Source of the DNA: Neptunicoccus sediminis
GTDB taxonomy: Bacteria; Pseudomonadota; Alphaproteobacteria; Rhodobacterales; Rhodobacteraceae
Assembly: GCF_001719615.1 (NCBI RefSeq)
Contig: NZ_MDVX01000002.1
Location: forward strand, 434,001-498,000
Direction: 5' to 3'
DNA: 64,000 nucleotides
Below are positions 1,717 through 50,997 of the stretch, piece by piece. The notes beneath the pieces are model-generated. The model did no database searches. It was not told the origin of the DNA and saw nothing but the letters and a program-made list of their open reading frames with translations. The position numbers were made by a program, and so were the translations under genes. Position 1 is the first letter of the stretch. Every line of letters starts with the position of its first letter.

Positions 1717-2799
1717 ATGGGAAGATTTATTCTCCGGCGAACAGGGGTCATGCTGCTGACAGCCCTGTGCCTGACTTTCATCGTGTTTTTCATGACGAAC
1801 CTTTATCCGAACCTTGAAAAACTGGCGAAAACCGAAGGCAATATGCGGATGACCGACGAACAGGTCGAAAGCTGGCTGGTAAATCGCGGATATACCCAGA
1901 ACGTTTTTCTTAAGTACGGCCAGTGGCTTGGCGTAATGCCCTCACCCAAAATCGAAGTCGACGGAGAGATCCACACCCGCTGTTCCCGCCCCGGAGTACC
2001 GGATGAAGAGATCGGGAATTACTGCGGCGTGTTACAGGGAAACTTTGGATTTTCCACAGTTTTCAAAGGCGAGGTTTCGGATATTATCGCCAAGAGGCTG
2101 GCGCTGACGGGCTGGCTGATGCTGTTTGTACTGATTGTGATGGTGCCTATGGCGCTGGTGATCGGGATACTTGCAGGAATGCGGGAAGGATCGCGCACGG
2201 ACAGATCGCTTTCAACTTTTGCAATCGCCACGACGGCTACGCCGGAATATGTGTCCGGTGTGATCTTTGTAGTGTTGTTTGCCTCCTCGCGCACCGGCCT
2301 CTCCCCGATCCTGCACGAATGGGGCTGGATTGAGAAGAAAACCCTGTTCAAAGGGCTGGCCTCAACCGCTGCCAATGACATTACATTTGCCAATTTCACC
2401 CTGCCCGTGATGGCGCTGGCGCTTTACGGGGTGGGGTATATCGCGCGGATGACACGGGCCTCTATGGCCGAAGTGATGACCGCGCAATACATCCGCACCG
2501 CCCGCTTGAAAGGGGTCAGCTTTCGCAACATCGTCTTGAAACACGCACTGCGCAATGCGCTGATTGCGCCGTTTACCGTCATCATGCTGCAAATCCCGTG
2601 GTTGCTGACCGGCGTTGTGATTGTCGAGACCCTGTTCAATTACAAAGGCTTTGGCTGGACGCTGGTTCAGGCCGCCGGAAACAACGACATAGAGCTGTTG
2701 CTCGGCGTTTCGGTGGTGGCTGTTCTGGTGGTGCTGGTAACGCAGCTCATATCCGACATCGGCTATGTTTTTCTCAACCCGCGCATCCGCGTCAGCTAA
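1717..2799 (+). CDS. ABC transporter permease, DppB/OppB type
   Basis: An inner-membrane subunit of the peptide-type importer, 360 residues. It starts with a hydrophobic segment (about residues 9-28), has a periplasmic stretch, then the binding-protein-dependent permease domain with about five further membrane segments. An EAA-like coupling loop is visible near residues 255-280 (RTARLKGVSF, then LRNAL), where the ATPase docks. The start ATG has an AGGGAA ribosome site. Only 15 bases separate its stop from the next permease gene, so the two are surely co-transcribed. A cysteine pair in the periplasmic region (the Cys of CSRPG and the Cys of NYCG) could form a disulfide; that is inference. Confidence 0.92.
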   Translation: MGRFILRRTGVMLLTALCLTFIVFFMTNLYPNLEKLAKTEGNMRMTDEQVESWLVNRGYTQNVFLKYGQWLGVMPSPKIEVDGEIHTRCSRPGVPDEEIGNYCGVLQGNFGFSTVFKGEVSDIIAKRLALTGWLMLFVLIVMVPMALVIGILAGMREGSRTDRSLSTFAIATTATPEYVSGVIFVVLFASSRTGLSPILHEWGWIEKKTLFKGLASTAANDITFANFTLPVMALALYGVGYIARMTRASMAEVMTAQYIRTARLKGVSFRNIVLKHALRNALIAPFTVIMLQIPWLLTGVVIVETLFNYKGFGWTLVQAAGNNDIELLLGVSVVAVLVVLVTQLISDIGYVFLNPRIRVS

Positions 2800-2814
2800 G
2801 GAAGGGACACTATT

Positions 2815-4020
2815 ATGGAACCTCTCACATCCCTTCAAATCGTCGGTTATGTGTTCATGCAGTTCATCCCTGTCTGGGTCGGAATGCTGGTGATTTTCGC
2901 CCTGTCAATCATGACCAAGAACAAGACCGGACTTTATGGCAAGCTGTTTGACAGCCCGATTGGAATGGTCGGCTTTGCGCTGGTGCTGTTCTGGGTGCTG
3001 ACGGCCATTTTTGCCGATGCCATCATGACACACGCCGCGCTGGAAACCGCGTCGGGTATGAAAAACAAACTGCCCGGCACCCCCCTGCGCGGCGCGACCG
3101 AGGGCGATTTCCAGTGGTATCTGTTTGGCGGCGATAACCTTGCACGGGATGTGTTCTCGCGCATGGTGGCCGGTTCACGGATCGTGCTGATCATCGCGCC
3201 TGCGGCCACGCTGTTTGCCTTTATGGTGGGTATCACCCTTGGCCTGCCTGCGGGATATTTCGGCGGGCGCACCGACACAGTGCTGTCATTTCTGGCGAAC
3301 CTCGTGCTCGCCTTTCCGGTGATCCTGCTGTTCTACCTGCTGGTCACACCGGAGATCCGCGCAGCAGGGGCCGAGATCCGCATCTGGGGCGGCAACACTT
3401 GGGTCACGTCGATCCCGAATATACTGGCGGCAATCCTGTTCCTGTTCCCGATCCTGTTCTTGCTGATCCTGTTCCAGTCGCGGTTTTTCACCCGTCCGAT
3501 GCTGCGCAACATCCTGATCGCGGGCACCTTGCTGGCAGGCGCTTGGATGTATTCGGGACTGGCGTTCAATGCCGATCCGCTCGGCCTGCTGGGGATGGAC
3601 CCGAACCTGTTGAACATCTTTGTCTCGGTTGTGTTTGTGAACTCCCCCACGGTATTCCGGATCGTGCGGGGGCTGGCGCTCGACATTCAGACGCGGGACT
3701 ATGTGGCAGCGGCGCAGACCCGTGGCGAGGGTCCGTGGTATATCATGCTTTGGGAAATCCTGCCCAACGCGCGCGGACCGCTGATCGTAGATTTCTGTCT
3801 GCGCATCGGCTATACCACCATCCTGCTCGGGACATTGGGCTTTTTCGGCCTTGGCCTCTCGCCGGAAAGTCCGGACTGGGGGTCTACCATCAACGAGGGG
3901 CGCAAGCTGCTGACCCTTTATCCCCACCCTGCCCTGATCCCTGCCCTTGCCCTGATGTCTATGGTGCTGGGGTTGAACCTGCTGGCCGACGGCCTGCGTG
4001 AACAATCACTCAAAGACTAA
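2815..4020 (+). CDS. ABC transporter permease, DppC/OppC type
   Basis: The second membrane subunit of the importer, 401 residues, longer than the typical 300. The extra length comes from two added hydrophobic regions: one N-terminal (residues about 8-30), and one in the middle (about residues 195-250) that interrupts the usual permease domain. The C-terminal coupling loop (RGEGPWYIMLWEILPNA) and the final segment ending in ADGLREQSLKD are typical of DppC. It is followed after 12 bases by the ATPase gene, with a GGGAGACGCGGA ribosome site between them. Confidence 0.9.
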   Translation: MEPLTSLQIVGYVFMQFIPVWVGMLVIFALSIMTKNKTGLYGKLFDSPIGMVGFALVLFWVLTAIFADAIMTHAALETASGMKNKLPGTPLRGATEGDFQWYLFGGDNLARDVFSRMVAGSRIVLIIAPAATLFAFMVGITLGLPAGYFGGRTDTVLSFLANLVLAFPVILLFYLLVTPEIRAAGAEIRIWGGNTWVTSIPNILAAILFLFPILFLLILFQSRFFTRPMLRNILIAGTLLAGAWMYSGLAFNADPLGLLGMDPNLLNIFVSVVFVNSPTVFRIVRGLALDIQTRDYVAAAQTRGEGPWYIMLWEILPNARGPLIVDFCLRIGYTTILLGTLGFFGLGLSPESPDWGSTINEGRKLLTLYPHPALIPALALMSMVLGLNLLADGLREQSLKD

Positions 4021-4032
4021 GGGAGACGCGGA

Positions 4033-6123
4033 ATGACTAAATGGGATTATGACGGCCCGATCCTTGAAATCGAAAACCTGTCGATTTCCTTCTTCACCCG
4101 CGCCGGAGAAATCCCCGCGGTGATGGATTTCTCCACCACGGTCATGCCCGGTGAAGCAATGGGGCTGGTCGGGGAATCCGGCTGCGGCAAATCCACCGTT
4201 GCGCTGGGGGTGATGCAGGATCTGGGAAAGAACGGGAAGATCGTCGGCGGCAGCATCAAGTTCAAGGGACGCGATCTGAACACGATGAGCGAGGAAGAGT
4301 TACGCGACCTGCGCGGCTCTGAAATCGCGATGATCTATCAAGAGCCGATGGCCTCTCTCAATCCGGCAATGCGCATCGGCAAGCAACTGATGGAAGTGCC
4401 GATGATCCATGAAGGCACCTCCAAGGATCAGGCCCGCCAGATGGCGATTGAAGTGATCAACGATGTGAAACTGCCCGATCCGGAACGGATACTCGATGCC
4501 TATCCGCACCAGCTTTCGGGTGGGCAACAGCAGCGTATTGTGATCGCAATGGCACTGATGTCCAAACCATCGCTGCTGATCCTTGACGAACCGACAACCG
4601 CATTGGACGTGACGGTAGAGGCAGGGATCGTCGATCTGGTAAAGGGGCTGGGCGAGAAATACGGCACATCCATGCTGTTCATTTCCCATAATCTCGGGCT
4701 GGTGCTGGATACCTGTGACCGTCTGTGCGTGATGTATTCCGGTGAAGCGGTGGAAACCGGATCTATCGAGGATGTGTTCGACAAGATGCGTCACCCCTAC
4801 ACGCAAGCGCTGTTCCGCTCTATTCCGCTGCCGGGGGCAGACAAAAACGCCTCTCCTTTGATCGCCATTCCGGGCAATTTCCCCCTGCCTCATGAACGCC
4901 CGCCCGGCTGTAATTTCGGACCGCGCTGCGATTATTTTGTCAACGGGCTGTGCAACAAAGGCGCTATCCCGATGGTCGCCGTAGAAGGCGGTGGCCGCGA
5001 CCGCCATGAAAGCCGCTGCCTGCGGGTGGACGAGATCAACTGGAAGGCCCCGCCTGCCGTTGCAGACAACACCTCAAAGACCGAACCGGGCGAAGTGGTT
5101 TTGAAAGTGGACGGGTTGAAAAAATACTATGAAGTGGCCGCAAATGCCATTTTCGGCGGCGGCGATGTTCGGGTTGTGAAAGCCAATGAGACCCTGTCCT
5201 TTGAAGCCCGCGAGAGCGAGACACTGGCCATCGTGGGGGAGTCCGGTTGCGGTAAATCCACGCTTGCCAAGGTGTTGATGGGGCTGGAGACCGCTACCGA
5301 CGGTTCCGTGACGCTGAACAACAACCAGATTGAAAACACCCCGATTGAAAACCGCGACACGGATACGGTGGCCTCTATCCAGATGGTGTTCCAGAACCCG
5401 TTTGACACGCTCAACCCCTCTATGACGGTGGGCAGCCAGATCATTCGTGCACTGGAGATTTTCAAGGTCGGAAACACCGCCGCTGAACGCCGCCAGAGGA
5501 TGCTGGAACTGCTCGATTTGGTGAAACTGCCCCGCGCCTTTGCGGACCGGATGCCCCGTCAGTTGTCAGGCGGGCAGAAACAGCGGGTCGGCATCGCGCG
5601 GGCCTTTGCCGGATCAGCGCAAATTGTGGTGGCGGATGAACCTGTGTCTGCGCTGGACGTATCTGTGCAGGCGGCGGTGACGGACCTGCTGATGGAAATC
5701 CAGCGAGAGAACAAAACCACCCTGCTGTTCATCAGCCATGATCTGTCCATTGTGCGCTACCTCGCGGATCGGGTCATGGTGATGTACCTTGGTCATGTGG
5801 TGGAAATGGGCACTACAGAAGAAGTCTTCTCACCGCCCTATCACCCCTACACCGAGGCGCTGCTCTCTGCTGTGCCGATTGCCGATACCAGCGTGCTGAA
5901 AAAGCGGATTGTGTTGGAAGGCGACATTCCGTCCGCCATGAACCCGCCAAGCGGCTGCCCGTTCCAGACGCGCTGCCCCCACAAGGTTAACGTAGCCGGA
6001 AACCTGTGCGAAACCGAAGTCCCGCCAATGCGCGATCTGGCAGGCAGCCAGCAGATTAAGTGCCATCTGGCGCAAAGCTATCTGGACCAGATGGAGCCCG
6101 TAATCAAAATCGCGGCGGAATAG
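4033..6123 (+). CDS. ABC transporter ATPase, DppD-DppF-like fusion with two nucleotide-binding domains
   Basis: One 696-residue polypeptide carries both ATP-binding cassettes that power the importer; in many bacteria these are two proteins (DppD and DppF). Each half has a Walker A (GESGCGKST, near residues 47-55 and 402-410) and an ABC signature (LSGGQQQR in the first half, LSGGQKQR in the second). Each also has a Walker B (LLILDEP, IVVADEP) and the cysteine-containing oligopeptide-transporter C-terminal extension (CNFGPRCDYF, CPFQTRCPHK). Both cassettes look catalytically complete. It is the last gene of the operon. Confidence 0.93.
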   Translation: MTKWDYDGPILEIENLSISFFTRAGEIPAVMDFSTTVMPGEAMGLVGESGCGKSTVALGVMQDLGKNGKIVGGSIKFKGRDLNTMSEEELRDLRGSEIAMIYQEPMASLNPAMRIGKQLMEVPMIHEGTSKDQARQMAIEVINDVKLPDPERILDAYPHQLSGGQQQRIVIAMALMSKPSLLILDEPTTALDVTVEAGIVDLVKGLGEKYGTSMLFISHNLGLVLDTCDRLCVMYSGEAVETGSIEDVFDKMRHPYTQALFRSIPLPGADKNASPLIAIPGNFPLPHERPPGCNFGPRCDYFVNGLCNKGAIPMVAVEGGGRDRHESRCLRVDEINWKAPPAVADNTSKTEPGEVVLKVDGLKKYYEVAANAIFGGGDVRVVKANETLSFEARESETLAIVGESGCGKSTLAKVLMGLETATDGSVTLNNNQIENTPIENRDTDTVASIQMVFQNPFDTLNPSMTVGSQIIRALEIFKVGNTAAERRQRMLELLDLVKLPRAFADRMPRQLSGGQKQRVGIARAFAGSAQIVVADEPVSALDVSVQAAVTDLLMEIQRENKTTLLFISHDLSIVRYLADRVMVMYLGHVVEMGTTEEVFSPPYHPYTEALLSAVPIADTSVLKKRIVLEGDIPSAMNPPSGCPFQTRCPHKVNVAGNLCETEVPPMRDLAGSQQIKCHLAQSYLDQMEPVIKIAAE

Positions 6124-44722: not shown

Positions 44723-45853
44723 TCAACTCACCCCGCCCCACTCCTTGTGCAATTTCAGCGCAAAGCGGTCTGTCATGCCCGAAACGTAATCCGCCACCAG
44801 TCGGGCGCGGGCGAAATCGTCGCTATAGGGGGTCCAGCCCTCGGGCAGCAATTCGGGGTGGTCCATAAAACGGTGGAACAGATCGCGCAGCACGGCAGTC
44901 ATTTCCTCACGCACCACCAGAACGTCCGCGTGGCGGTACATATTGGCGTAAAGAAACTCTCGGATTGCGTTCAGACCGGACAGCAGTTCGTCTGAAAAGG
45001 CAATCACCGGATGGTCCAGATTGCGTATGTCCTGCGCAGTTTGCGCGCCGGATTTTTCCAGCCAGATGCGGCTTTCGGTCAGCAGGTCCTCTACCATCAG
45101 ACCAAAGACACGGCGCAGGGATTCATGGCGACGGCGGTCGGGGTCCAGATTGGGGTACTTGCGGTCCACCTCGGCAAAGCAGGGTTTGACCAGCGGCAGG
45201 TGCAGAATGTCGTCAATCTGGAAAAGACCTGCACGTAGCCCGTCATCAAGATCGTGATTGTTATAGGCGATGTCATCGGACAGGGCGGCGACCTGTGCCT
45301 CGGCACTCGCGTGGGTGTGCAGTTCCAGATCGTGTTTGGCGTTATATTCCGCCAGCGCGAAGGGGATTTCCCCCAACACCGGACCATTGTGTTTGGCGAT
45401 GCCTTCCAGACATTCCCACGTCAGGTTCAGACCGTCAAATTCCGCATAATGGCGCTCCAGATCGGTGACGATCTTGATGGCCTGCGCGTTGTGGTCAAAC
45501 CCGCCGTAAGGCGCCATACATTCATCAAGCGCATCTTCTCCGGCGTGACCGAACGGCGTGTGGCCCAGATCATGGGCCAGCGCCACCGCCTCTGTCAGTT
45601 CGACGTTCAGGCCCAGTGCACCGGAAATCGTCCGCGCCACCTGCCCGACCTCGATGGAATGGGTCAGACGGGTGCGGTTGTGATCACCTTCATGCTCTAC
45701 AAAAACCTGCGTTTTATGTTTAAGACGGCGGAAGGCCGTGGAGTGGATGATCCGGTCCCGATCCCGCTGAAAGGCCGAGCGGTGGGCCGAGTGCCCCTCA
45801 TCCACAAGCCGACCCCTGCTATTCGCAGGATTACTGGCATAATTCGCTAACAT
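44723..45853 (-). CDS. dGTPase-like HD-domain triphosphohydrolase
   Basis: A 376-residue HD enzyme that removes triphosphate from dNTPs. The N-terminal segment HRSAFQRDRDRIIHSTAFRRL, the first histidine in TRLTHSIEVGQ and the HD pair in ALAHDLGHTPFGHAGE are visible. The family is annotated as a deoxyguanosinetriphosphate triphosphohydrolase-like protein; substrate preference is not certain. It is divergent from the A-type Fe-S carrier gene by about 100 bases. Confidence 0.92.
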   Translation of the reverse strand: MLANYASNPANSRGRLVDEGHSAHRSAFQRDRDRIIHSTAFRRLKHKTQVFVEHEGDHNRTRLTHSIEVGQVARTISGALGLNVELTEAVALAHDLGHTPFGHAGEDALDECMAPYGGFDHNAQAIKIVTDLERHYAEFDGLNLTWECLEGIAKHNGPVLGEIPFALAEYNAKHDLELHTHASAEAQVAALSDDIAYNNHDLDDGLRAGLFQIDDILHLPLVKPCFAEVDRKYPNLDPDRRRHESLRRVFGLMVEDLLTESRIWLEKSGAQTAQDIRNLDHPVIAFSDELLSGLNAIREFLYANMYRHADVLVVREEMTAVLRDLFHRFMDHPELLPEGWTPYSDDFARARLVADYVSGMTDRFALKLHKEWGGVS

Positions 45854-45955
45854 TTGATTGAGGCCCCGATCTAAACGTCTGTCTTGTCCTTGATGCCGCG
45901 TTTATCGCAGCCTATGTTTAGGGAAACCTTACACGATTGATGTGGACGTTAACAG

Positions 45956-46291
45956 ATGGACTTGTCCCTGCCCCCTAAAGTAACCGACCGCGCGTTTGAA
46001 CGGCTTGCCGAAATCAACGAAGGCGCAACTGCGGCCCAATGCCTGCGCGTCGCCGTTGAAGGCGGCGGCTGTTCGGGCTTTCAGTACGAAATCAAGCTGG
46101 AAGAGACGGCTGCCGATGACGATCTGATCCTTGAAAAAGACGGACAGAAGGTGCTGGTGGACAGTGTGTCCCTGCCCTTTTTGACCAATGCGGTGATTGA
46201 TTTCAGTCAGGAACTGATCGGCGCACGCTTTGTGATCGAAAACCCAAATGCCAGCAGCTCTTGTGGTTGTGGCACCAGCTTCAGCATGTAA
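45956..46291 (+). CDS. A-type iron-sulfur carrier (IscA/ErpA family)
   Basis: A 111-residue carrier that passes Fe-S clusters to target enzymes. The three cluster cysteines are in GGCSGFQYEI and the C-terminal CGCG (SSCGCGTSFSM). FLTNAVIDFSQELIGARFVIENPNA is the family strand pattern. It resembles ErpA most closely, but the exact subtype is not certain. Confidence 0.92.
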   Translation: MDLSLPPKVTDRAFERLAEINEGATAAQCLRVAVEGGGCSGFQYEIKLEETAADDDLILEKDGQKVLVDSVSLPFLTNAVIDFSQELIGARFVIENPNASSSCGCGTSFSM

Positions 46292-46374
46292 ACCGCCCCT
46301 CGCGGGTCCGGTTTGCGCTTGTTCTCTGACAGGATTGCCGCGATATTTGCGCGGCAATCAAAGGACCAACCCAC

Positions 46375-47157
46375 ATGAAAATCGCCAGCTTCAATATCAA
46401 CGGGATCAAAGCCCGCCTGCCTGCCCTTTTGCAGTGGCTGGAAGAGGCGAAACCGGATGTGGCCCTGTTGCAGGAAATCAAATCGGTGGATGAAAACTTC
46501 CCCCGCGAACCGATTGAGGATCTGGGCTACCAAGTGGAAACCCACGGGCAGAAATCCTTTAACGGTGTGGCGATCCTTTCCAAACTGCCGTTGGAAGACA
46601 TCACACGTGGCCTGCCCGGTGATGACGAAGACGACCACGCCCGTTGGATTGAAGCTACGGTGATCGGGGACAAAACGGCTGTTCGTGTCTGTGGGTTGTA
46701 CCTGCCCAACGGCAATCCGGCCCCCGGACCGAAATACGACTACAAGCTGGCCTGGATGGAGCGTCTGCACGCCCGCGCCCGCGATCTGATGAATGCTGAA
46801 GAACCGGCACTGATGGCTGGCGATTACAATGTGATCCCCCAGCCCGAAGATTGTTGGGATGTGAAACCGTGGCTGGAGGATGCGCTCTATCTGCCCCAGT
46901 CCCGCGCTGCATTTGAGCGAATCAAGAACCTCGGCTTTACCGAAGCTTTCCGCGCCCGCAATCAGGCGCCGATGAATTTCACCTTCTGGGATTATCAGGC
47001 GGGCCGCTGGAACAAAAACCAAGGCATCCGCATCGACCACTTCCTGCTGACCCCGCAATGCGCCGACCTGTTGCTAGACTGCCAGATCGACCGCGACACG
47101 CGGGGTCGCGAGAAACCCAGCGATCACGTCCCGATCTGGGTCGAACTGGACGCGTAA
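46375..47157 (+). CDS. xthA: Exodeoxyribonuclease III
   Basis: A 260-residue AP endonuclease/3'-5' exonuclease of base-excision repair. The active site is complete: NINGIKA, LLQEIK, AGDYNVIPQ, RIDHFLL and SDHVPIW. The last 113 bases of coding sequence (47041-47153) are repeated 980 bp downstream with one synonymous change. The active gene therefore uses the upstream copy as its 3' end, and this copy ends GCG-TAA where the downstream one ends GCC-TGA. A terminator follows directly. Confidence 0.96.
   Translation: MKIASFNINGIKARLPALLQWLEEAKPDVALLQEIKSVDENFPREPIEDLGYQVETHGQKSFNGVAILSKLPLEDITRGLPGDDEDDHARWIEATVIGDKTAVRVCGLYLPNGNPAPGPKYDYKLAWMERLHARARDLMNAEEPALMAGDYNVIPQPEDCWDVKPWLEDALYLPQSRAAFERIKNLGFTEAFRARNQAPMNFTFWDYQAGRWNKNQGIRIDHFLLTPQCADLLLDCQIDRDTRGREKPSDHVPIWVELDA
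47041..47153 (+). repeat. Direct repeat copy 1 (3' end of xthA)
   Basis: 113 bases matching 48021-48133 except for C at 47082 against T at 48062. The mismatch leaves the cysteine codon synonymous. It encodes the last 38 residues of XthA including the catalytic histidine of SDH. Confidence 0.97.
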
Positions 47158-47161
47158 ACCC

Positions 47162-47188
47162 ACTGACTATCAACGACCGTCAGTTTTT
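47162..47188 (+). terminator. Terminator after xthA, inside the islet
   Basis: ACTGAC (47162-47167) pairs with GTCAGT (47179-47184) over an 11-base loop and runs into TTTT. It separates xthA from the foreign gene. Confidence 0.55.
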
Positions 47189-47216
47189 CTTCACATAAGA
47201 ATTCTTCACATAAGAA
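47187..47216. promoter_or_regulatory. Tandem 15-bp palindromic site upstream of the HEPN-like gene
   Basis: The 15-base TTCTTCACATAAGAA occurs twice without a gap (47187-47201 and 47202-47216). Each copy is an inverted repeat, TTCTT-N5-AAGAA, and the junction makes a further palindrome AAGAATTCTT. Two adjacent dyads 50 bases before the start suggest an operator, or binding sites for a recombination protein. The site lies in the promoter region of the islet gene. Confidence 0.5.
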
Positions 47217-47265
47217 AACGAATGCCAAGTTAATTTTAGAAATTATTTCATTGAGGATTGCGGCT

Positions 47266-47964
47266 ATGAACAAACCTTTGCCAGAATTAAAGCTAACTGT
47301 ACCTGGTCTTAGAATTATTGCTCCTCAACACATTAAAGATAATTTAAAAAAGAAATGGGAATATTCAGCTAGAGAATTTGTGACTGAATTGACGGAAGAG
47401 TACTGTTCCGCATGGGCGAGTCTAATTCTTTTCTCCCGCTACCATGACACGCACACCAAGCGGGCACTATTCGAAGCGGAGTTAGCCGAGAAAGGCAACC
47501 AAGAAGCGCTTCGCGAGGCGCAACAAAATCGATACCCATCAGCGATAGAAAACCACTTTTACAAAATACAACGCGACGCCTTTGTCTTTACCGTGGTGCG
47601 AACAATAAACATAATTAAGTTGGGACCTGCCACCGATTCCGACGATCTCATTGACGTAGATTTTTCACCTTTCAAAGAGCAACTGGAAAATGCGTTCCCT
47701 GATGCGAGGGACGTTCGAAATTCTATTGCTCACGCGGAAGAAAGACGGCGGAAAATAAAAAATGGAGGCAAGCCTATGCCTCCGCATATATCTATTGTGG
47801 GCGCACAAACAGGTGACAGCCTCACAACCATAGGGGCGGACGGAATACCAAAATCTATAAGTTTCTCCGCAGAATCACTAATTAAACTTAAGAATATATT
47901 AAATGAATTGTTTGCGGTTTTTGAATGGTATGGAGAGCCTGAGAAGTGGCCATTAGATTACTAA
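47266..47964 (+). CDS. HEPN-like protein in an AT-rich islet within the xthA locus
   Basis: 232 residues, mostly helical. The segment DVRNSIAHAEERR contains R151-x4-H156, the catalytic motif of HEPN RNases. It sits in the right context: after a helix rich in acidic and hydrophobic residues, with a basic follow-up. An aromatic helix bundle lies before it (WEYSAREFVTELTEEYCSAW) and another at the end (FAVFEWYGEPEKWP). The gene has clearly AT-rich codons, unlike its neighbours. No antitoxin gene is adjacent, so it could be a solitary defence RNase. The HEPN call is based on motif and shape only. The ATG at 47266 is used; a TTG at 47251 is possible. It is bounded by the 113-bp repeats. Confidence 0.65.
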   Translation: MNKPLPELKLTVPGLRIIAPQHIKDNLKKKWEYSAREFVTELTEEYCSAWASLILFSRYHDTHTKRALFEAELAEKGNQEALREAQQNRYPSAIENHFYKIQRDAFVFTVVRTINIIKLGPATDSDDLIDVDFSPFKEQLENAFPDARDVRNSIAHAEERRRKIKNGGKPMPPHISIVGAQTGDSLTTIGADGIPKSISFSAESLIKLKNILNELFAVFEWYGEPEKWPLDY

Positions 47965-48020
47965 TTACTGCAAAATCTAAACTCATAAATAATCTACCGT
48001 TTTGGCATTGCAATCCACGG

Positions 48021-48136
48021 TTCCTGCTGACCCCGCAATGCGCCGACCTGTTGCTAGACTGTCAGATCGACCGCGACACGCGGGGTCGCGAGAAACCCAG
48101 CGATCACGTCCCGATCTGGGTCGAACTGGACGCCTG
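48021..48136 (+). pseudogene. Second 3' end of xthA (direct repeat copy 2)
   Basis: The last 38 codons and stop of an xthA gene, in frame internally but without a start. The first 113 bases (48021-48133) match copy 1. The native-looking GC-rich hairpin directly after its stop suggests this is the original 3' end of the chromosomal gene, and that the upstream copy came in with the islet. Confidence 0.9.
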
Positions 48137-48316
48137 AGCCAGCGCAGCAGCGCTGGCGGCATGGGCGGGGTGAAGGGCGGGCGGACCGCCATCGTCTTCC
48201 CAACGGGCCAGACAGGACGGTGACGGTTTCTTGAAAACAATCCTTGCGCGGCCGGCCGAGGGGCGTCTTTTCGACCTTAACTCGGGTGATTTGAAATGGT
48301 TTTGGCGGATCAACAT
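48104..48316 (-). CDS. Possible small gene, convergent with xthA
   Basis: 70 residues from the ATG at 48316, with an excellent AGAGGAG ribosome site seven bases before it. The product starts MLIRQNHFKSPELRSKRRP and has basic and proline-rich parts, then ARWEDDGGPP, and an alanine-rich end. The last codons read through the opposite strand of xthA copy 2. No family is recognised. The strong ribosome site is the main support, so the call is uncertain. Confidence 0.4.
   Translation of the reverse strand: MLIRQNHFKSPELRSKRRPSAGRARIVFKKPSPSCLARWEDDGGPPALHPAHAASAAALAQASSSTQIGT
48138..48157. terminator. GC-rich hairpin after xthA copy 2
   Basis: GCCAGCGC and GCGCTGGC form a perfect 8-bp stem with an AGCA loop, one base after the copy-2 stop codon. 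No T run follows. It is probably the original transcript end of xthA. Confidence 0.5.
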
Positions 48317-48398
48317 GTCGCAACTCCTCTGAAACGTAACGGGATTTTCTGAACAGCGCGTCACCTGTAAATCGGGGACGCGCGAACGGGGCGTGGCG

Positions 48399-48710
48399 TT
48401 AACCGGCCTGATGGATCCCGTCGGCTTCAGGCGTGGCCGCTGTTGCGCGGCTCACGGGGGTCATGCCCAGTTCCTCGTCAGTGAAGCGGCCCACCACATA
48501 GCGGATCTCGCCGCGGCGGATGCCCATGTCGTGCAGCAACCGGTCATCCAGCGCCTGAAGCGCGTCGATCATCTTGCGGCGCTGCCAGCGGCGATACAAA
48601 GACCGTCCCAGATCCCCGATAATCCGCGCGACACGACCCCGTTGCCTGATCGCACCGGCATAGGGGGCGGCGGGAGAGAGGTAGTTACGTTGTGAAAGAT
48701 AGGTTTGCAT
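48399..48710 (-). CDS. DUF1127 small protein
   Basis: 103 residues with a DUF1127 region at about 40-72 (RWQRRKMIDALQALDDRLLHDMGIRRGEI), an arginine-rich helix typical of small alphaproteobacterial proteins linked to RNA turnover and phosphate/carbon control. It has a longer N- and C-terminal extension than the minimal 50-residue members. I chose the ATG at 48710, with GGAGAA upstream. The role here is not known. Confidence 0.8.
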   Translation of the reverse strand: MQTYLSQRNYLSPAAPYAGAIRQRGRVARIIGDLGRSLYRRWQRRKMIDALQALDDRLLHDMGIRRGEIRYVVGRFTDEELGMTPVSRATAATPEADGIHQAG

Positions 48711-49058
48711 GTCGTTCTCCGAAACTGTGAAGGTTCCAGACATGCGCAAAGCCGTCTCCGGCACGTGACCGGCAACGCGGTCACAGGCATTGCGGCGCCT
48801 GTTGCGCTCGTGTCTGGATTGAAAGAAGGAAATTCCAACATCACCCCGAGGTCAAAGCAGGCAAACAGCCCGCCTGACCCGGGGCTAACCGCGGTTCAGT
48901 AGATTTCCTGCGGGACGCAGGACCTTCTTATGACACAGTGTTATCGACATGCCTTGCATATGGGCGCTGCGGGCACCTGTTTCAAGAGGCCGCCCCGCGC
49001 TGCGACCTTCTGTCCGTTGCAGCCCGCCAGTCGCGGACGCGCAATCGAGCCAGTCGGG
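48711..49058. other. Intergenic stretch between DUF1127 and sulfotransferase-like genes
   Basis: About 350 bases without a supported gene; short open frames here lack good starts. A 7-bp hairpin (TCCTGCG/CGCAGGA, 48906-48922) lies in it but has no T run. The 48711-48790 part is likely the DUF1127 upstream region. Confidence 0.5.
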
Positions 49059-49808
49059 TCAGTCGGAAACGTAAGCCGGATAGCCAAGCTGCTGGAACAG
49101 GAACCATTCGCGATCCTGTACCGCCCGCAGCAGATCATCAGAGAGGACATCCTTGGCGTCATCCCGCTTTGAGGCGTTGATGCGGGCGTCAGACGTCATC
49201 AACTCGTTCACAGCCGCCTCTGCATCCTCAAACTTCGGCGCAAGTTCCGCCTTGATCAGCGCGGCAAGATCCCCGTTCAGGCTTTCGTTGCGGATCACCA
49301 CTTGGGGCAGGCCCTTGTTCTTGTACCGCCGGACCACCTGATCACGATCCTTGAACGCATTCAGTTCCTTGTGTTTTCCAGGCAACGCGAGGGTCAGGTA
49401 GCGATAGGTCATATATCCGAACAGTCCCGCATGGGTGTCGGCATAAGGCGCCTCGTAGAAATGGGCGTTCTGCGGGTCAAGCATGAACTCCAGCCATTTT
49501 GGAAAGCCCGCCGGACCATCGGCGTAAAGGCTGTTTCCCTCACTGAAGTGCCGGTCCAAACGGCGACGGATCGGGCTGCCGGTTTTGGTCAGGCCGAAAT
49601 AATACAGGCTTTTATACTGGTCGAGCGGGTCCCGCGCAGTGATGAAGTAAAACGTGCCGTCATCCTGTTTGACCTGTTTGAAAGACACGCGCCGGTGCTT
49701 GATAAACCTGACAGGCTCTTCCGCGATATGACGTTTGAGGAAATCGACGATAAAGCTCGATCCGGTCTTCTGGACATCAAGATAGCAAAAGGAACCGTAA
49801 TCGAGCAT
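49059..49808 (-). CDS. Sulfotransferase-like protein
   Basis: A 249-residue P-loop protein. The 5'-phosphosulfate loop is QKTGSSFIVDFL (13-24), and the 3'-phosphate segment is TARDPLDQYKSLYYFG with Arg59 and Ser67, both typical of PAPS-dependent sulfotransferases. No signal peptide is visible. The acceptor is unknown. The gene is 85 bases downstream of, and on the same strand as, the kinase-like gene, so the two may act on a surface glycan or small molecule together; that is inference. Confidence 0.75.
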   Translation of the reverse strand: MLDYGSFCYLDVQKTGSSFIVDFLKRHIAEEPVRFIKHRRVSFKQVKQDDGTFYFITARDPLDQYKSLYYFGLTKTGSPIRRRLDRHFSEGNSLYADGPAGFPKWLEFMLDPQNAHFYEAPYADTHAGLFGYMTYRYLTLALPGKHKELNAFKDRDQVVRRYKNKGLPQVVIRNESLNGDLAALIKAELAPKFEDAEAAVNELMTSDARINASKRDDAKDVLSDDLLRAVQDREWFLFQQLGYPAYVSD

Positions 49809-49893
49809 ATATTTTCCTGCTTTTGTGCCGCACCGCCCCCTGTTCGGACCCGCCCAGCTTCATTTAAATCTGTATCTCAGTGTTCAAGCAGGT

Positions 49894-50856
49894 TTACGTT
49901 GCAGCGACAAGCCCCTCTGTTTCGGCGTCTTTTGGCGCTCCTTCCAGAAAGGCGCGCATCCGCTGACGGGCAAATTCCTGTTTCTCGGCATCGGTTTCTC
50001 TGGCCACATAGACCCGCACCATTTGCTCTGCGATAAAGTAGCGGACCACACGCTTTTGCCGCAGGGCCACGCCGGCAGCTTTAAGAAACATTCGTGCCTC
50101 TTTCTCTGGCAGGCCGTGAAACAGCCTCTGCCCGTCCGGAGACGAGAAGAAATCCTTCATCACCAGAAAACGGGCCGCCATGCGCATCAGGGGCAGCCAG
50201 CGTTCCCTGTTGATGTCGATTGCATAAAGCCCGCCTTCCCAGATCTTGAGGTTCACCAAAGTCATGTCGTCATGGGCGCTGGTGTGATCCACCGGCTTGC
50301 CTTCTATCTGATCTGCAAGAGAAGCCATTTCCGCCAGCATCCCGTTCAACAGGGTGCGTTCTTCGCCGCTTAGGGTGTCGTTATCCGAAACGTCCAAACG
50401 GGACACAAACTGCGCGGCCCGCAGGGGTTTCTCTTTGCGCCGCAGATCGGCACAGGCTTTCAGCCAGCCTGCAACTTGTAGCACGATGGCTTCCCGTTCC
50501 GGCTGTTCTGCCGCATTATAGAGGGACCGCACCGTGTCCCCATCGACCCATTTCAGGATCACGACCCCCAGTTCCGGCACGGTCTCAAGGCAATTGTTGA
50601 CATAATAGGGTTCGGGCAGATTGGTCTCTAGAAATTGCAACTCTGTGCAGGCGCGTTTGGCGCTGACGGCAGCTTTGTCGCGGGGGTATTGTTTATAAAC
50701 CACCCGCTGCCCCTTGTAGGACCCCGTGGCAACAATGGAGCGATCTTCGATCTTTCTGACCCGCAATCCTCTGACGGCGAACAGCCCAAGTCTGGAGCAT
50801 AATTGCCACCGGAACCTTAAGGTCAGAGCAATTTTGCGCAGTCGCGTTGTCAGCAT
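49894..50856 (-). CDS. APH/Kdo-kinase-like small-molecule phosphotransferase
   Basis: A 320-residue protein with a eukaryotic-like kinase fold. Lys55 (RVVYKQYPRD) is the ATP lysine. The catalytic loop is H195-D196-D197 to N202 (AHDDMTLVN), and the metal aspartate is probably D214 (AIDIN). The catalytic loop has Asp-Asp where many have Asp only. The family includes aminoglycoside, choline and lipopolysaccharide core kinases; the substrate is unknown. A lipopolysaccharide kinase role would fit the basic N-terminus but is not proven. Confidence 0.75.
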   Translation of the reverse strand: MLTTRLRKIALTLRFRWQLCSRLGLFAVRGLRVRKIEDRSIVATGSYKGQRVVYKQYPRDKAAVSAKRACTELQFLETNLPEPYYVNNCLETVPELGVVILKWVDGDTVRSLYNAAEQPEREAIVLQVAGWLKACADLRRKEKPLRAAQFVSRLDVSDNDTLSGEERTLLNGMLAEMASLADQIEGKPVDHTSAHDDMTLVNLKIWEGGLYAIDINRERWLPLMRMAARFLVMKDFFSSPDGQRLFHGLPEKEARMFLKAAGVALRQKRVVRYFIAEQMVRVYVARETDAEKQEFARQRMRAFLEGAPKDAETEGLVAAT

Positions 50857-50920
50857 GATGATGTTTTCTCCCGGCCCGGCAACAAATGCAGGCAGTGCAT
50901 TGCAAGATGTTTGGAAAGAT

Positions 50921-50997
50921 TGGTAGGCCCGGTAGGACTCGAACCTACGACCAAAGCGTTATGAGCGCTCTGCTCTAACCAACTGAGCTACAGGCCC
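50921..50997 (-). tRNA. tRNA with CAT anticodon (elongator Met or lysidine-modified Ile2)
   Basis: A 77-base cloverleaf on the minus strand with encoded CCA. The acceptor GGGCCTG pairs with CGGGCCT (G-U pairs included), the anticodon loop is CTCATAA and the anticodon is CAT. The 5' end is not of initiator type. Whether it reads AUG or, after lysidine modification, AUA cannot be settled by eye. Confidence 0.9.

Follow-up and report, generated by a model that had tools for sequence, protein, structure and literature searches.

We analyzed a 64,000-nucleotide stretch of the Neptunicoccus sediminis genome (the window), in which xthA, the gene for exodeoxyribonuclease III, is followed by a one-gene islet and then by a second copy of its own 3′ end (Table 1). 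Sequence comparison revealed that the two repeat copies are the same apart from a single position (C at 47082, T at 48062), as a preliminary description of this DNA had reported, with a start-to-start spacing of 980 bp and an identity of 97% when 120 nt are compared. That description was also correct that each copy ends in its own stop codon and that the change before it keeps alanine: copy 1 closes with GCG TAA and copy 2 with GCC TGA. The working gene does use the upstream copy, its reading frame being complete, and the XthA protein is 95 to 96% identical to those of the two closest congeners (genomes G012 and G002). In the direct-repeat comparison, the runner-up within the same 6 kb was only 29 nt long at 72%, and the 113-bp repeat is therefore far beyond chance. 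The copies form att-like direct repeats around the islet; equally, they constitute a homologous segment duplicated around foreign DNA, as a single crossover leaves. An extension of copy 2 leftward into diverged xthA was considered and rejected, the score there being no better than that of shuffled sequences, which matched it in 26 to 77% of trials. The second joint is thus devoid of further xthA homology, again as in a single-crossover product. On the strand opposite xthA, copy 2 could take part in a long imperfect hairpin (47955-48100, minus strand; DNA fold, z −2.6).

Table 1. Features at and behind the xthA 3′ end, in window coordinates
Feature	Position	Strand	Basis or remark
xthA (exodeoxyribonuclease III), 260 aa, intact, upstream repeat copy in use	46375..47157	+	ORF; PF03372 E 3.6e-29
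Repeat copy 1, working xthA 3′ end	47041..47153	+	GTAAAC follows
AT-rich islet	47158..48020	+	One place in genome
Terminator-like hairpin ACTGAC...GTCAGT, then T run, directly behind copy 1	47162..47184	+	Fold
15-bp palindrome TTCTTCACATAAGAA, two perfect tandem copies, upstream of islet gene	47187..47216		
Islet gene, HEPN-like motif RNSIAH, phrog_5322 relative	47266..47964	+	ORF and profile match
Repeat copy 2, displaced xthA 3′ end	48021..48133	+	CTGAG follows
GC-rich hairpin GCCAGCGC-AGCA-GCGCTGGC behind copy 2	48138..48157		Fold
Segment B, missing here in the two closest congeners	48138..49066		0.93 kb
Small protein gene in segment B	48399..48764	-	ORF; homologues in other genera

The DNA between the copies had been described as an AT-rich foreign stretch with one gene, and this held: GC content is 0.42 to 0.44 in two sampling windows inside the islet, compared with 0.53 to 0.62 in those clear of it, and there is a single substantial open reading frame. 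The islet DNA had no match in 383 other genomes of the family. The terminator-like hairpin behind copy 1 is absent from the consensus terminator scan, which limits loops to 8, the loop here being 11. The tandem palindromes represent a possible operator of the islet gene, and they could also be candidate arm sites for an integrase or excisionase; the 30-bp unit had no exact match in viral contigs. An Rfam scan matched tRNA alone.

The islet gene encodes a protein of 232 aa if translation begins at the ATG, or 237 aa from a TTG at 47251. The protein matched phrog_5322, a family of unknown function, with an E value of 3.3e-15, and gave no Pfam family over the cut-off and no NCBIfam family. Across 29 aligned sequences, residues R148, R151, N152 and H156 are invariant, and R151-N152-x-x-x-H156 conforms to an R-x4-6-H motif. 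The R-x4-H pattern is typical of HEPN ribonucleases. The PADLOC model CARF_HEPN matched with an E value of 0.0051, which agrees with the motif and is too weak to count; weak matches to Calici_coat_C (E 0.038), HamB (E 0.022) and two PDB entries (E 0.032 and 0.11) were set aside. Structure prediction gave a mostly helical model (mean pLDDT of 76.5), and its comparison with solved structures gave no HEPN entry among the 50 matches listed, a result that excludes nothing. The product is probably an RNA-cutting enzyme of the HEPN type, and the gene is perhaps an abortive-infection gene.

Relatives of the islet gene were found on small plasmids (6 plasmid records, four of them examined) and at 32 loci in a public genome collection. 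The gene is rare in its own family (one other of 394 genomes, with a weak match), and phrog_5322 matched one other of 289 genomes of the class (E 6.5e-4). The islet protein had no relative in phage records, and the 6 stretches of viral contigs that fit a pattern for it encode none. In a relaxed scan, an attC-like site followed the islet-gene relative in 8 of 28 loci, compared with a mean of 0.38 and a maximum of 3 in 500 shuffles. In one locus (L098), the relative lies among repeated attC-like sites (1850-3000), and in three others (L101, L103 and L104) relatives likewise stand before such sites. Together with the plasmid records, these sites indicate that some of the genes in this family move in integron cassettes and on small plasmids. 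On sequence grounds, a HEPN-like family that has no Pfam model is in part integron-borne. A different arrangement was seen in Pseudidiomarina marina (L082), where a 345-bp direct repeat (2506-2850 and 5766-6110; 99% identical) brackets approximately 2.9 kb containing an islet-gene relative.

Within the genus, the xthA end was matched in 28 of 33 genomes, only G012 and G002 exceeding 90% identity to the probe, and two copies were present in this genome only. In these congeners, the match to window 45400-47158 is 92.7% (G012) and 93.2% (G002) identical, and just 8 and 11 bp, respectively, separate the xthA-end match from the point at which the match resumes, window position 49067, where a convergent gene ends. 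Hence the window carries approximately 1.9 kb of extra DNA, comprising the islet, copy 2 and segment B. An empty site, which it had been suggested to look for in related genomes, is therefore evident in the two closest congeners, and the insertion is very likely genuine. The preliminary description had placed the end of the insert at 48136; its account of the islet stands, and the extra DNA runs on to about 49066. It had also proposed that recombination between the repeats would excise 980 bp and restore an intact xthA. The spacing is indeed 980 bp, but a further 0.93 kb lies behind copy 2, and excision would thus not recreate the arrangement of the congeners.

Segment B had no DNA match in the 32 other genomes of the genus, and in plasmids it matched just a 55-bp piece in Gemmobacter fulvus. 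Its small protein, which we take to be DUF1127-like, gave no family in the NCBIfam search and had weak matches in 4 of the 32 genus genomes (E 3.5e-5 to 7.9e-4); homologues in other genera were clearer, and at seven loci of these xthA was missing from the flanks of about 1.5 kb. Upstream of the small gene lies a 55-bp stretch (48878-48932), perhaps a promoter, with counterparts of up to 85% identity close to this gene in other genera. Segment B may have been gained here or lost in both congeners. The interval between xthA and a tRNA-Met gene (50921-50997), which here spans 47158-50921, is variable within the genus: the two genes lie about 100 bp apart in G020, whereas G002 and G012 carry between them a longer stretch matching window 49067-50857, to which the present genome adds 1.9 kb. 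An origin by integration at tRNA-Met was considered and set aside, as no copy of its 3′ end lies beside the islet and the nearest similar stretch is in another tRNA.

The bases of the repeat bear on the age of the duplication. Four bases (T47071, A47076, G47100 and T47106) are the same in both copies and different in G012 and G002. Two further genomes, G020 and G016, have G47100 and lack the other three, leaving three sites private to this lineage. As the shared bases differ from both congeners, the duplication is younger than the split from them, and both copies descend from the xthA of this lineage. Together with the empty site, these lineage-specific bases bear out the earlier claim of a recent arrival of foreign cargo at the xthA 3′ end. 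The sole internal difference lies in copy 2, which has T where copy 1 and four relatives have C. At the very end, copy 1 reads GCGTAAA, as in G012, and copy 2 reads GCCTGAG, as in G002. Such ends may reflect a donor and a resident with two alleles, the sites being so few that chance agreement may suffice. In a mosaic check of 44734-47157, this genome shared sites alternately with each congener, with no clear switch at the repeat.

We hold with moderate confidence that a single crossover between the xthA end and a donor molecule of xthA end plus cargo best explains this layout. The donor DNA would most likely have come from the same species, with the islet already standing behind xthA. A fragment of it would have been taken up and its ends joined, giving a circle of about 980 bp with the xthA 3′ end and one foreign gene, and one crossover inside the shared xthA end, presumably by the RecA-dependent machinery of the host, would have integrated it. 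Integration would leave xthA closing with the last codons of the donor and followed by the islet; behind this would come copy 2, which is the resident 3′ end in its displaced position, and then segment B, the DNA that stood downstream in the resident chromosome. Indeed, any integration of the 980-bp circle by one crossover yields this layout, whether through host recombination or through an integrase. There is precedent in Escherichia coli, where, in the excerpt available of the report (PMC3240628), 56 of 60 clones obtained from DNA sharing one chromosomal segment had duplicated that segment, with duplications of 109 to 950 bp in the 14 sequenced, and the authors' reading is one crossover with a circular molecule. 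Delivery by gene transfer agents would be plausible in this group; such agents are reported in Rhodobacteraceae in an excerpt of PMC8224337. Our set of one genome per species, from which very near records may be missing, gave no donor strain in which the islet follows xthA without a second copy. Two features count against the crossover: the position of the stop right at the end of the repeat, a feature that an integrase restoring gene ends leaves as well, and the tandem palindromes by the junction, which could be arm sites.

The same two features recur in a rival reading, which we consider rather unlikely, namely that this is a site-specific element devoid of a recombinase, for which the xthA 3′ end is the att site, the carried 113-bp copy restores the gene and an integrase acts in trans. 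The layout, the restored stop and the short cargo all fit, and the earlier claim that the islet has no recombinase gene was confirmed for tyrosine integrases: the genome has 12 tyrosine-integrase matches, 11 of them over the Phage_integrase cut-off, and none lies in the window. The 11 could supply the help, some of them being expected to be the housekeeping XerC/XerD. In addition to the palindromes beside copy 1, both copies contain a core-like inverted repeat, CGCGAC-N7-GTCGCG (47092-47110 in copy 1). However, when 1278 windows of 113 bp were scanned, 151 contained the start of a perfect inverted repeat with arms of 6 and a spacer of 5 to 9, and in G012 and G002 one arm is imperfect. The lack of a second example of the arrangement also speaks against such an element. 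A second xthA-end copy near xthA was found at none of 63 loci from 55 genomes, a survey of mostly 1.5-kb flanks and one genome per species, with some loci cut by contig ends and one (L015) reading N behind xthA, which would miss copies lying beyond a large island. Thus, large islands aside, there is no sign of xthA as a recurrent integration site. Neither other cargo between the same repeats, which it had been suggested to look for in relatives, nor a related recombinase-bearing element was found in these flanks, and relatives of the 11 integrases were absent from both the 63 loci and the window. The xthA end matched 393 of 394 family genomes at E values up to 10, paralogues included, and by eye this genome alone appears twice among the better matches listed. 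Phage records gave no match to the xthA end, and searches of viral contigs for exact matches gave none for the core-like 19-mer or for one degenerate xthA-end pattern. In plasmids it matched 250 records, the 15 matches listed having an xth or exodeoxyribonuclease III annotation, or none, under the match. Among papers listed for xthA as an integration site, one set had no mention of xthA and another had none of exodeoxyribonuclease III, which is no proof of absence from print; for Rhodobacteraceae prophages, an excerpt of PMC8224337 names tRNA integration sites. An integrase-less element mobilized in trans is thus possible and without positive support, and its minimal form, a probable defence gene plus the xthA 3′-end copy moved by a host integrase or by one from another element, with the xthA end as attachment site, is unlikely. 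The dedicated target-restoring insertion that the preliminary description favored is not supported, no second example having been seen and no helper shown, and ordinary recombination giving the same layout.

Three further explanations were considered. In homology-facilitated illegitimate recombination (HFIR) of linear DNA, which we judge improbable, the incoming molecule would pair through the xthA end and its other end would join illegitimately within xthA, at position 47041, so that the final 113 bp became duplicated. A circle is then not required and the joint without homology is accounted for, and something similar has been put forward to explain the displaced 3′ ends of Vibrio T6SS arrays (excerpt of PMC5361080); however, the 4 of 60 E. 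coli clones ascribed to HFIR had deletions, the duplications being ascribed to circles (excerpt of PMC3240628). We regard insertion of an integron cassette at a secondary site as very improbable. The attC-like sites of the relatives favor it, but the relaxed scans that find those sites give none behind the islet gene. A strict attC consensus scan was blind, returning none in the window and also none in the 28 relatives. No integron integrase exceeded the cut-off (TIGR02249 gave 8 matches, none over it), as was also true of 14 control genomes, so that this negative lacks a positive control. Cassette insertion, moreover, is not known to leave a 113-bp duplication of its target. There is similarly scant probability of an assembly error: the assembly is a draft in 72 contigs, but position 47082 and the ends distinguish the copies, each of which has its own flank, the locus lies within a 530-kb contig, and the islet and segment B are each single-copy.

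The single-crossover reading places the locus among known recombination products. Cis-mobilizable elements, like decayed islands at the 3′ ends of genes, have att-like direct repeats, no recombinase and a restored gene end. The present locus shares all three features, but we saw no autonomous relative that uses xthA, and this genome alone showed the repeat. Integron cassettes carrying islet-gene relatives share the protein family and the single-gene unit, whereas an attC-like site was not found here. As excerpted, the E. coli integrations of recircularized DNA (PMC3240628) are alike in placing foreign DNA within a direct duplication (109 to 950 bp there, 113 bp here) with no dedicated recombinase; they involved an engineered conjugative plasmid, whereas the islet here is a natural one with a single gene. 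At T6SS, Rhs and CDI loci, according to part of PMC5361080, a resident gene likewise receives a new module at its 3′ end and the old end remains downstream, but those modules swap the gene end, whereas here the restored end leaves the encoded protein unchanged and the cargo forms a gene of its own. The locus, a recent insertion of one gene that left a gene end duplicated, is in this sense a further example of a known recombination product. Most likely it is a side effect of ordinary uptake and recombination of DNA, and no novel type of mobile element is involved. The locus offers a clean and recent snapshot of an accessory gene that has settled beside a housekeeping gene, leaving it unharmed, and no mobility gene is visible. 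Proof of excision would make the locus a very small hitch-hiking element; failing that, the case shows that a target-restoring layout can come from ordinary recombination, and that the layout alone is not proof of an element.
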